From positions 1 through 64,000 of the forward strand of contig JAFWJH010000003.1 in the NCBI GenBank assembly GCA_017511645.1: a stretch of DNA of 64,000 nt, written 5' to 3'. The notes beneath the pieces are model-generated. The model was not told the DNA's origin, searched no databases, and saw nothing but the letters and a program-made list of their open reading frames with translations. Below, piece after piece: positions 26,550 through 61,385 of this stretch. Positions within the stretch are counted from its first letter, which is position 1, and every line of letters begins with the position of its first letter. The stretch is from Candidatus Saccharimonadota bacterium. GTDB taxonomy: Bacteria > Patescibacteriota > Saccharimonadia > Saccharimonadales > Saccharimonadaceae. Both the position numbers and the translations under genes were made by a program.

Positions 26550-28190
26550 CTACTCTGCTACGCAACGAATAGAAAAGCCCTCGCCCTTGCTGTAGCTAGC
26601 AGCCGGTGAGACATTACTCGGTAAGAAGCCCAGGCCATAAGCACTACCGGTATTATTGACGGCGTTAGACCAATAGTAACCATTGTTCTCTCCATAAAAT
26701 ATACCTTTCCACACGTCTCCAGCTCGTACAAAGTAAAGAGGATTAGCCAACATTTCGGTGTATCCTACCGATGCGGTCCCGGCATAGCCAGCAGTGTTTT
26801 GATCATCTTTAGTAATGCTGTAAGCATAGAGCAGTTTAGAAAACTCATAGCCGCCAGCCATAGAAGCAGCATTAGGCAATCTCCAACCTTTCGGACAAAT
26901 AGAGTTAGCTGCTATAGTGTTATTAGTGGAATAACTAGATGAATTATTAGATGCTATAGCTGCAGTCCAGTTATAGTAATTACCTGTATAGCCATGTCCA
27001 TCCATTGCACCATTTGGTGTTACTAGGCCATTATCATAGGAATATGGGTTATTATTATCATTTTGCCAAGTAGTAGAGCTTAGACTACCTTCTGGAATAG
27101 TGGCTCTTTCTGGTACCCAAGTAATCACTTCATTTACCCCACTACAATCAGCGGAAGTAGTAGTTCCTGGATCACTTGAGTTAGTACAGGTGTATCCATT
27201 AGCTGTATCGTAGCCATAACTACCATAGAGCTTAAGATTAGTGTTCTCTGAGGTTAGTTTTACTGCATTAGTGGGAGTTGTTTCTAGGCCTAGGTCTAGG
27301 TTTTCTGTCATCCAACATTGGCCGTTTCTATTATCCGAAGCGTCATTTTGTAGTTTAGCAACCCAGTAAAGTTTATTATCTCTAGTATCAACCAACTCTA
27401 ACTCTGATGCTGTCCCAAAGACATAAGTGGCGTTACAGATAGCCGTGGTCATATCCTGCATAGTGTAGTATTCTCCGCTCTCACCAGTAAGTGGATCGGT
27501 AGCTTGGATTTTTTGTTTGCCAGCATTTTTGAAGGCTTCAGCTAGAGTAATAGGTTGAGTTGATGTGGATGGATGAAGCATCACGTATTTTACTCTGCCG
27601 GTATAAGTACCTGCCGTTTGGGTACCACTAATATAGGCATCATAGGTAACAGAAACGTGTGAGCCAATAGATTTATCTACAGTGCCAGATTCTTTTCTAA
27701 CTACTTCAGTCCAGTTGGTAGGAACAAGATTAAAATGATTATTATAGTTAGAGTTAATAGTAAGACCACTTTCTGTGGTGCTTAGCTTCATGGACCAGGA
27801 AGACGTTGTGGTGTCTATGTTATTTGGGTCGTAAACTCCGGTAGGGATATTGTCATTATTGTTGCCTACGAGATTAGTATTGCCTTCGGTATCATCACTG
27901 ACCCCTCTAGCGTATATGATATAACCACCTACGTCATTACAATACATAGTGAAGTTAGTAGGCGCTTCTCCGAGATTAGGATAATACTGATTATTAACAA
28001 CTGATTGAGTATGGGTAGTAGAAGATCCGCCGTCTATAGTACAAGAAACTGGGAGGTTTAATGTGACGCTATCCGTACCGGCATTATCGGCAGAGGCAGG
28101 TGTGCTGAGATAAGATGTGAGGCTCACGACAAAGCCTAATATTAGTAACATAACACTATACAGATATACTTTGATTAGTTTGTGGCTCAT
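26550..28190 (-). CDS. Large secreted surface protein, paralogue A, C-lectin-like C-terminus
   Basis: 546 residues. N-terminal signal/membrane segment (~8-30: SVMLLILGFVVSLTSYL, then PASA). Residues ~40-215 are a beta-rich Thr/Asn/Ser domain with two Cys (LPVSCTIDGGSS, TMYCND). Residues ~280-546 carry WMTENLDLGL, ICPKGWRLP and YYWSNAV, and end FSIRCVAE, the pattern of Fibrobacter-major-paralogous / FGE-type C-lectin-fold domains. No sortase motif. It is paralogous to the protein at 59814-61385 over the whole length and shares the same leader RNA. Start 28190 is set by GAGG in GTGAGGTAAAGCC. Adhesion or host recognition is likely but inferred. Confidence 0.85.
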   Translation of the reverse strand: MSHKLIKVYLYSVMLLILGFVVSLTSYLSTPASADNAGTDSVTLNLPVSCTIDGGSSTTHTQSVVNNQYYPNLGEAPTNFTMYCNDVGGYIIYARGVSDDTEGNTNLVGNNNDNIPTGVYDPNNIDTTTSSWSMKLSTTESGLTINSNYNNHFNLVPTNWTEVVRKESGTVDKSIGSHVSVTYDAYISGTQTAGTYTGRVKYVMLHPSTSTQPITLAEAFKNAGKQKIQATDPLTGESGEYYTMQDMTTAICNATYVFGTASELELVDTRDNKLYWVAKLQNDASDNRNGQCWMTENLDLGLETTPTNAVKLTSENTNLKLYGSYGYDTANGYTCTNSSDPGTTTSADCSGVNEVITWVPERATIPEGSLSSTTWQNDNNNPYSYDNGLVTPNGAMDGHGYTGNYYNWTAAIASNNSSSYSTNNTIAANSICPKGWRLPNAASMAGGYEFSKLLYAYSITKDDQNTAGYAGTASVGYTEMLANPLYFVRAGDVWKGIFYGENNGYYWSNAVNNTGSAYGLGFLPSNVSPAASYSKGEGFSIRCVAE

Positions 28191-28193
28191 GGC

Positions 28194-28394
28194 TTTACCT
28201 CACTTAGATTATTAAGCTCTTGTGGTGCCACCTTTATAACGGGAATTAACAAAAATGGCACCGCAAGGGGTGCAACATCTAGTCAATCACGCTAGGTAGC
28301 GTTGAAAGCTGGATACCTTACGGTGCCAATATTACTTTTCAACGCTACGACGTGATATAAAAACCACTAGCGTACAGATTAACTAAATGTTGCA
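28194..28394 (-). promoter_or_regulatory. Structured leader RNA, copy A (with the copy at 59614-59813)
   Basis: Untranslated leader of the 26550-28190 gene. TACAAT on this strand (28400-28405) is the -10 box, 6 nt before the outer helix. The outer helix pairs 28377-28394 with 28271-28288 (18 continuous pairs, two G-U). A second helix pairs 28335-28347 with 28297-28308. GGCACCGTAAGG (28316-28327) is complementary over 12 positions to CCTTGCGGTGCC (28257-28268), which itself forms a hairpin with GCACC followed by ATTTTTG. A third GGCACC lies at 28234-28239. Copy B has different helix sequences but the same pairings. The rest of the gap 28406-28497 shows nothing I can name. Confidence 0.8.
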
Positions 28395-28497
28395 CTTAAA
28401 TTGTAACACGTGAAATACTCAGACGGTAGACTTGATTTTTGCTGAAAATGTATCATAACAGCATTATGTTAGTGGTTGCGTATCTGTAAAATCGTGG

Positions 28498-59602: not shown

Positions 59603-59608
59603 TATAAT
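59603..59608 (+). promoter_or_regulatory. -10 box of leader RNA copy B
   Basis: TATAAT at 59603-59608 lies 5 nt before the first base of the outer helix at 59614, so the RNA starts almost at the helix, as in copy A. Confidence 0.65.
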
Positions 59609-59613
59609 GAAAA

Positions 59614-59813
59614 TGCTATATTCAATTATTTAAAAGTCAGCGGTTTTTATATCGTAGCTGTTCATGAAAAAAGTAATGGCACCGTAAGGACCAACTTTTC
59701 ATGGACAGTTGCTGGCGTGAATAATTGGATATAGCACCCCTTGCGGTGCCATTTTTGTTAATTCCCGTTATCAGGTGGCACCACAAGAGCTTAATAATTT
59801 AAGTGAGGTAAAG
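59614..59813 (+). promoter_or_regulatory. Structured leader RNA, copy B
   Basis: Leader of the surface protein at 59814. Outer helix 59614-59630 with 59720-59736 (17 continuous pairs, one G-U). Second helix 59658-59670 with 59696-59708 (13 pairs). The enclosed GGCACCGTAAGG (59678-59689) can pair with CCTTGCGGTGCC (59739-59750), giving a pseudoknot. GCACC/GGTGC (59734-59738 with 59745-59749) followed by ATTTTTG looks like a terminator and competes with the outer helix. A further GGCACC (59777-59782) gives a third partner. GGTTTTTATATC and the stretch from CCCCTTGCGGTG to the ribosome site match copy A nearly base for base. Confidence 0.8.
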
Positions 59814-61385
59814 ATGGGCCACCAAATAATTAATGTTAATACTAATAAAGTATTAAAAGTATATCTGTATAGTATAGTATTATTAATACTAGGTTTTATA
59901 GTAAGTTTTAGCTCATATCTTAATGTATCTGTCTTTGCTGATAAATCTAATGTAGATAAGCTAACTCTAGATTTGCCAGTATCTTGTACTATAGACGGAG
60001 GATCATCTTCTGTTCATACTCAATCAGTAGTAAATAATCAGTATTATGATAATCTAGGTGGAGCACCTACTACGCTTACTACTTATTGCAATGATAATGG
60101 CGGGTACATTATCTATGCGGTATCTTCTGGCGATAATACCGAAGGTAATACTAATCTAGTAGGCAATAATGGTAGTAATATACCTACTGGCGTTTATAGT
60201 CAGGGCGATACTACTTCTTCTTGGGCTTTCAGAATAGATAGATTAGACAATACTTTAGAATTGAATCCTAACTATAGTGGGGGCTTTAGCACAGTGCCTA
60301 GTACCTGGGATTGGGTAGCCAAAAAACCATCTGGTACTGTAGATAGTAGTACCGGTTCTAAGATCACTGCTACTTATGCTGCCTATATTAGTGGTACTCA
60401 AACTGCTGGTACTTATACTGGACAAATGAAATATATGTTATTTCATCCTTCTGGTTCTCAGGCTCCTACTACTATTGCTCAGGCTCTCTCAAATAATGAC
60501 AAACAAAAGTATAATGACTACTACAAAATCCAAGACATGAACTCTACTATTTGTAGTGAAGTAAACGTCTTTGGGGCCGCATCTGAAGCAGAACTGATAG
60601 ACATAAGAGACAATAGTGTCTACTGGGTGGCCAAACTAGAAGATGGTCATTGTTGGATGACAGAGAATCTAGATCTAGACTTTAATACTACTAATCCAGA
60701 TGGTAGTATTGCTATGCGTACCTTTACGTCTAATGATACTAATCTTACTCTCTATGGTTCTAAAGGTTACGACACAAATAATGGTTACTCTTGTTCTAAT
60801 GATGATCCTACTTGTACAGGAGGCACTATTGCCTGGACTCCACTAAGAAGTACTATAACACCAAGTAGCCTAAGCTCTTCTACTTGGCCTAATAACAATA
60901 GTTCACCATATTCCTATGATCGTGGTAATGCTGAACCAGATGGTTACAAAGATGGCCATGGTAAGTCTGGCAACTATTACAACTGGACCGCAGCCGTAGC
61001 ATCCAATGCTTCTGGCAACATTACAGGCGGCAATGCTGCTAACTCTATTTGTCCTAAAGGCTGGAGACTACCAAATACTAGAACCTATGAATTCTCTAAA
61101 CTATTATATGCTTATGATATTACTAAGGACGATAAAAACACGGCAGGATATGCTACAGGTGGCTACAACAAAATGGTAGCTAGCCCGCTCTACTTTGTGC
61201 GGTCCGGCTACGTCAATAGTGGCTCGCTTTACAATTCAGCTATCAGCGGCGACTATTGGTCTAGCGCGGTAGACAGTGGTTCTAACGCCTTCGACCTGTA
61301 CTTCAGTTCTAGTAATGTTAACCTGGCCAACAGCTACAGCAACAGCAGGAGCAGCGGCTTTTCAGTCCGCTGCCTCGCTGAATAA
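59814..61385 (+). CDS. Large secreted surface protein, paralogue B, possible variable C-terminus
   Basis: 523 residues, paralogous to the protein at 26550-28190. Signal/membrane segment ~16-38 (VYLYSIVLLILGFIVSF). Beta-rich N-terminal half with LPVSCTIDGGSSSVHTQS. C-terminal half with CWMTENLDLDF, ICPKGWRLP, FVRSGYV, DYWSSAVDS and the end SVRCLAE, a C-lectin/FGE-like fold as in Fibrobacter-type paralogous proteins and retroelement target proteins. Codons shift from AAT/ACT-rich to AAC/AGC/TAC over the last ~200 bp. Start 59814 is set by GAGG in GTGAGGTAAAG. Host adhesion is inferred. Confidence 0.85.
   Translation: MGHQIINVNTNKVLKVYLYSIVLLILGFIVSFSSYLNVSVFADKSNVDKLTLDLPVSCTIDGGSSSVHTQSVVNNQYYDNLGGAPTTLTTYCNDNGGYIIYAVSSGDNTEGNTNLVGNNGSNIPTGVYSQGDTTSSWAFRIDRLDNTLELNPNYSGGFSTVPSTWDWVAKKPSGTVDSSTGSKITATYAAYISGTQTAGTYTGQMKYMLFHPSGSQAPTTIAQALSNNDKQKYNDYYKIQDMNSTICSEVNVFGAASEAELIDIRDNSVYWVAKLEDGHCWMTENLDLDFNTTNPDGSIAMRTFTSNDTNLTLYGSKGYDTNNGYSCSNDDPTCTGGTIAWTPLRSTITPSSLSSSTWPNNNSSPYSYDRGNAEPDGYKDGHGKSGNYYNWTAAVASNASGNITGGNAANSICPKGWRLPNTRTYEFSKLLYAYDITKDDKNTAGYATGGYNKMVASPLYFVRSGYVNSGSLYNSAISGDYWSSAVDSGSNAFDLYFSSSNVNLANSYSNSRSSGFSVRCLAE

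Follow-up and report, generated by a model that had tools for sequence, protein, structure and literature searches.

Structured leader RNAs of Candidatus Saccharibacteria that most likely act as transcription attenuators of surface-protein genes

Introduction

Transcription attenuators built on an intrinsic terminator, including riboswitch platforms, the T-box and protein-binding leaders, have in common a 5′ leader with a terminator-like hairpin and U-tract before the ribosome-binding site (RBS), and an antiterminator pairing that is mutually exclusive with that hairpin. The leader described here has both, and differs in that the antiterminator strand is provided by the tip of a long 5′-terminal rod, whose base also supplies the 5′ arm of the terminator, that its helices are freely replaceable, and that it has no conserved ligand-like core besides the tip and a junction, and no Rfam family. 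Among large surface-protein families, the vlhA genes of Mycoplasma are a phase-variable lipoprotein family; the likeness lies in about 40 paralogous surface-protein genes, all behind a common upstream element, in less than 1 Mb. In our case this element is a structured RNA and not a simple-sequence repeat. Integron attC sites are likewise imperfect palindromes with free sequence and preserved structure, whereas the rod leaders have a sense-strand G-U bias, a promoter and terminator context, a conserved tip instead of conserved ends, and a dispersed arrangement.

Saccharibacteria are epibionts of other bacteria, have genomes of less than a megabase, and have been little studied as to regulation. 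Here we analyse a stretch of 64,000 nucleotides (the window) from a 524-kb, 77%-complete assembly, together with related Candidatus Saccharibacteria assemblies mostly from ruminant gut, and propose that its leaders represent a new cis-acting RNA family of the 5′ leader type, most likely working as transcription attenuators. Searched against Rfam 15 at gathering thresholds, a comparison that the original prediction had called for, the window and 17 loci of both flavours of the leader matched tRNAs only, and relaxed thresholds gave chance-level matches or none. In the open-access literature, with subscription journals and preprints little covered, we found no account of an RNA like this from Saccharibacteria or Patescibacteria. 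We class the leader as a new RNA family among the attenuators, with no counterpart in Rfam 15.

Architecture of the Leaders

The original prediction had placed switch-like leaders before two paralogous genes, at 59614–59813 (+) and 28194–28394 (−). Both are present there (Table 1), and each folds far below its dinucleotide shuffles (z = −6.4 and −9.2, respectively). Their outer helix has 17–19 pairs, the second helix of copy 1 pairs as claimed, and the invariant GGCACCGTAAGG lies at 59678–59689 (+) and 28327–28316 (−), with its 12-position complement CCTTGCGGTGCC downstream. The GCACC/GGTGC hairpin indeed precedes ATTTTTG, and is flagged by a terminator scan in both copies, while the third element, (T)GGCACC, is found near the ribosome site at 59776 (+) and 28230 (−). 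That GGTGCC has three exclusive partners is supported by the covariation, hairpin co-change and pairing excess described below, and the further covarying copies sought as a check exist in many genomes. To this earlier description we add a fixed promoter geometry, a small hairpin (P2), two extra copies in the same genome and a three-base overlap of rod and terminator; that the window leaders act as switches is an inference.

Table 1. Positions of the leader elements and downstream genes in the window.
Feature	Position	Strand	Remarks and basis
Copy 1, −10 box TATAAT	59603–59608	+	5 nt before rod; from sequence
Copy 1, rod (H1, H2, P2, H3, tip)	59614–59736	+	Putative RNA 5′ end; folds
Copy 1, covariance-model match	59614–59756	+	E = 8e-25
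Copy 1, H1 5′ arm	59614–59632	+	Partner 59718–59736; fold and covariation
Copy 1, P2	59642–59653	+	Small hairpin with U-rich loop at H2/H3 junction; fold
Copy 1, second helix	59658–59670 with 59696–59708	+	13 pairs
Copy 1, tip T-GGCACCGTAAGG	59677–59689	+	Complementary to D; pairing counts, covariation
Copy 1, H1 3′ arm	59718–59736	+	Final GCA doubles as start of terminator 5′ arm
Copy 1, D (GCACCCCTTGCGGTGCCA) and U5	59734–59756	+	Terminator-like hairpin; can instead pair with tip or F; terminator scan
Copy 1, F (TGGCACCACAAGAG)	59776–59789	+	Second partner of D; pairing test and fold
Copy 1, RBS AAGTGAGGT	59801–59809	+	From sequence
Gene 1, secreted FISUMP-domain surface protein	59814–61385	+	Likely start ATG at 59814; TIGR02145 above cut-off
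Copy 2, −10 box TACAAT	28400–28405	−	From sequence
Copy 2, rod	28271–28394	−	5′ end at 28394; folds; covariance-model match, E = 1.2e-22
Copy 2, tip GGCACCGTAAGG	28316–28327	−	From sequence, pairing counts
Copy 2, D and U5	28251–28273	−	Terminator-like; terminator scan
Copy 2, F	28217–28230	−	From sequence and fold
Copy 2, RBS	28197–28205	−	From sequence
Gene 2, secreted FISUMP-domain surface protein	26550–28190	−	TIGR02145 above cut-off

All copies follow a common layout of a TATAAT-like box, a rod of about 125 nt, an element D, a spacer, an element F, the RBS and the start codon. The rod is a three-way junction (H1, H2, P2 with its U-rich loop, H3 and the tip), variable in sequence and constant in architecture, and in all copies it gives a near-perfect stem of 35–45 bp at the predicted 5′ end of the RNA. 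The 5′ side at the H2/H3 junction is U-rich in 88 of 112 copies. A TATAAT-like box stands 5–8 nt before the rod in 131 of 133 copies (120 at exactly 5 nt and 130 at 5–6 nt), compared with 10.3 expected from shuffling, and the RNA is predicted to start at the rod base, 5–6 nt past the −10 box. Directly after the rod follows D (GCACCCCUUGCGGUGCC-A-UUUUU), which alone folds into a hairpin of 5–6 pairs before five U's, terminator-like in both window copies, and these U's are invariant in 30 aligned copies. The final 3–4 nt of the rod form the 5′ arm of this hairpin, the first three bases of the putative terminator being the last three of the rod. By the terminator scan, this GC-rich hairpin and its U-tract sit between the predicted promoter and the gene; because the stem is so short, termination could be weak.

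Covariation and the Pairing of Tip and D

The helix at the rod base is maintained as a structure. Among 81 distinct rows aligned to the covariance model, H1 has standard pairs in 96.3% of cells and two-sided changes at 17 of its 17 pairs, and H1 together with tip:D scores 0.479 for covariation, a value reached in 0 of 500 shuffles; counts from such rows lean towards the model, and slid controls gave at most 0.10. In a structure-free MAFFT alignment of 30 copies, 93.5% of the H1 cells were still paired and 14 of the 17 pairs changed on both sides. H1 holds 152 G-U cells against 17 A-C, indicating selection on the sense RNA strand. For H2 and H3 the backing comes from individual folds and inspection by eye in place of column counts, since MAFFT aligned these helices poorly.

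The tip (GGCACCGYRAGG) is complementary over 12–13 positions to the 3′ part of D, that is, to the 3′ arm of the D hairpin and, in some flavours, to the first U's, so tip:D and the hairpin are mutually exclusive. At least 10 of 13 pairs are possible in 133 of 133 copies. The own tip and D of a copy make 12.09 pairs on average, compared with 11.32 ± 0.07 after exchange of D among the copies (highest value among 5000, 11.59), with a slight bias to own pairing as the 13-mer tip was picked as the best complement within each rod; the fixed motif and column counts guard against this bias, the latter giving 26 two-sided cells in tip:D compared with 8.3 ± 2.2. The calculated energy of tip:D is −27 kcal/mol, or about −21 after opening of the apical stem, against −7 for the D hairpin, hence energies favour tip:D.

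A strong test of this pairing is offered by a second flavour of the leader in other genera and families (TGTC...GACACC-UUGC-GGUGUC-GUUUU, with the open tip ACGGCACCGCAUAA), in which letters differ and complementarity stays. Divergent tip and D sequences remain complementary in GGCACCACGC/GCGUGGUGUC (L219), AAGCGGCAUCGCA/UGCGGUGUCGCUU, GGACAUCGCG/CGCGGUGUCC and GGGCACCGUG/CACGGUGUCC. Changes in the rod base are likewise matched in the two terminator arms (TGC..GCACC..GGTGC and TGTC..GACACC..GGTGTC), the D hairpin alternating between GCACC/GGUGC and GACACC/GGUGUC in step with the rod base. Pairing in cis would require the tip to bend back along the rod until it meets D; arms of about 26 nt (lower) and 22 nt (upper) would make this possible. 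A compensating correlation between the arm lengths was looked for and not found, and their negative correlation probably reflects a misplaced junction.

A Plausible Mechanism and Its Alternatives

The attenuator reading, which we hold with moderate confidence, can be outlined as follows. The RNA would start at the rod base, whose last 3–4 nt are the 5′ arm of the terminator. As long as the rod is complete and its tip bound to D, both terminator arms would be kept apart and polymerase would read through; once the rod base opens and the tip is released, the D terminator could form and transcription would stop. This scheme presumes that termination occurs, that tip:D is the ON state, that pairing takes place in cis, and that the balance responds to some signal. 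In the genus of the window, F may then take D over in the read-through RNA and, where F complements the start region, that RNA might also be controlled at translation. The leader would in this way gate a large surface-protein family in this genus, and other accessory genes in other genera.

The place of F deserves separate attention. D and F can form at least 11 of 13 pairs in 62% of the genus copies, against 1.8% after shuffling, and an edge pair of D:F changes from A-U to G-C on both sides together (L016, L027, L066, L071). Because F is made after the U-tract, D:F cannot affect termination; its conservation needs a separate reason, and it should act in the read-through RNA. In the ATGGGCCAC group (n = 23) F strongly complements the start region (z = −4.1), as it does, with one exception, in the ATGCGG groups (z about −2 to −5), and no such pairing is seen in copies starting with ATGAAG. 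Masking of the start codon by F thus appears real in some start contexts and is not general, making a translation layer plausible. A switch acting wholly at translation, with D passing between tip and F, F otherwise masking the start codon, and the D hairpin being no functional terminator, would account for this complementarity and for the D:F excess, and an inverted repeat covers the start codon in two restriction-modification genes (L193, L196). We nevertheless consider such a switch improbable: it fits poorly with the ATGAAG copies and with the class-wide second flavour, where F is weak or absent yet D retains its terminator-like hairpin and T's, and it leaves the conserved U-tract unexplained. 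In L193 and L196, both type III methylase genes, the repeat (TTTTAGGCA..TGCCTAAAA in L193) has a 5′ arm that overlaps an F-like GGCACCG, which could pair with D instead.

About equally doubtful is an explanation with no cis switch, in which the rod serves constitutively in 5′ protection or processing (for example as a target of RNase III) or gives rise to a short terminated RNA that acts in trans. The long stem at the predicted 5′ end of every copy would suit such a role, as would the terminator adjoining the rod; neither the covarying tip:D complementarity nor the dual use of the rod base as terminator arm is explained by it.

A DNA-level role has to be weighed against the way in which rods differ between close relatives. 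At one orthologous locus of two related genomes (G368 and G181), identity is 94% over 600 upstream bases, 100% in promoter and H1, and 95% from D to F, whereas the inner rods are 64% identical (random rods, 0.62 ± 0.05). Between G368 and G282, by comparison, the inner rod is 98% identical and the upstream flanks just 86%. Wholesale change on both strands of the inner rod is found at L257/L263/G181 C2:87614 and several other orthologous loci, some of them with H1 changed too; pairing stays intact in the replaced rods, and tip and D are constant. This looks like module replacement and not drift, and it poses an evolutionary puzzle, as paired helices are exchanged wholesale between close relatives while the flanking promoter, tip and terminator remain fixed. 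Inversion of the inner rod between H1 repeats was rejected by eye, since the orientation of the tip is unchanged in every replaced rod. Gene conversion with a different rod as donor was checked by searching two of the replaced rods in 174 genomes; each had a single relative (G282) as its sole substantial match, and no donor at another locus.

Module replacement may keep some DNA-level process in play, and arms that pair while their sequence is free are reminiscent of attC sites. That the leader is primarily a DNA palindrome, a recombination or diversification site of the integron attC or REP type with incidental RNA, is nonetheless very unlikely; the G-U over A-C asymmetry in H1, which points to one-strand RNA selection, rules this out as the primary role, and promoter, U-tract and RBS context are fixed while the copies are dispersed singly, without arrays. 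That the leader belongs, in divergent form, to a known class, for instance the T-box (RF00230), can hardly be entertained, even though tip pairing is loop-to-strand, GGUGGCACC stands before the RBS in the window copies, and AGGTGGCACCAC in their F (the GGTGGCACC string that prompted the idea) resembles the antiterminator core, since Rfam gives no match, none of the downstream genes is of the tRNA-charging or amino-acid kind, and the resemblance is lost in other genomes (AAATGGCACCGCTAGGG). As for a UGGN bulge pairing with the NCCA of tRNA and a specifier codon, UGGCACC is present in F, where its conserved partner is D, and inspection by eye recognised no specifier loop.

Distribution and the Surface-Protein Family

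In the window's genome there are four copies of the leader, and the two outside the window also precede secreted proteins with closely similar starts. With the covariance model, at least one copy was found in 69 of 174 genomes of the genus. The family is patchy over the class Saccharimonadia, with the second flavour in 52 of 393 genomes and 27 of 152 genera, and none was found outside the class, as a 240-genome sample of the phylum gave three matches, all inside Saccharimonadia. Viral or mobile carriage was rejected after three exact-pattern scans of viral contigs returned no copy. One copy (L046) comes from a rabbit-gut MAG that bears the label Oscillospiraceae; its contig probably belongs to Saccharibacteria and was mis-binned. 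Second-flavour leaders precede two type III DNA methylases, one Tsp45I-type restriction enzyme, OmpA-like and DUF4352 proteins, one Imp-YgjV membrane protein, and FISUMP-like secreted proteins; such functionally mixed genes outside the genus argue against a single metabolite ligand.

High copy numbers are seen in G181, a related MAG of which 793 kb hold 39 sense copies, 12 of its 13 weaker matches being antisense overlaps of these; G282 and G368 have similar raw counts of 52 and 48 (E ≤ 0.01, antisense overlaps included). G181 also has 39 FISUMP-type ORFs, totalling 65 kb or 8% of the genome, of which 33 lie directly behind a leader. Three of the six ORFs lacking one are cut off at contig ends, where five of the six leaders unlinked to such an ORF also lie, and the leader-to-gene link is near one-to-one. 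Many copies in G181, G368 and others lie less than 500 bases from contig ends; short-read assembly is probably interrupted where leader and gene start recur, and the true copy numbers may be higher. An RNA that precedes nearly every gene of the largest surface-protein family would give a concrete, mutable handle on the choice of surface in an epibiont. With it, the catalogue of RNA families gains one of class-wide range, and the control of these proteins becomes testable.

Since tip and D hardly differ between the copies in one genome, each leader could act on every other. On this basis the leaders may be imagined as one network coordinating the choice among about 40 surface proteins, where the unique, module-replaced rod would give each locus its identity and ensure self-folding, an idea that we regard as speculative and unlikely. 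RNA-based expression choice coupled to a surface-protein family bearing its own diversity-generating retroelement would, to our knowledge, have no counterpart.

Reverse transcriptases are present in G368, G282 and G003, and none was found in the window's 77%-complete genome. G181 carries a diversity-generating retroelement (L277; C3, about 20.6–24.6 kb) with a reverse transcriptase of 388 aa containing GNLTSQ, an Asn-rich template repeat and an adjacent FISUMP target, whose gene, unlike most of its paralogues, has no rod leader. Between template and target, 23 of the 56 A positions are changed, against 0 of 141 other bases.
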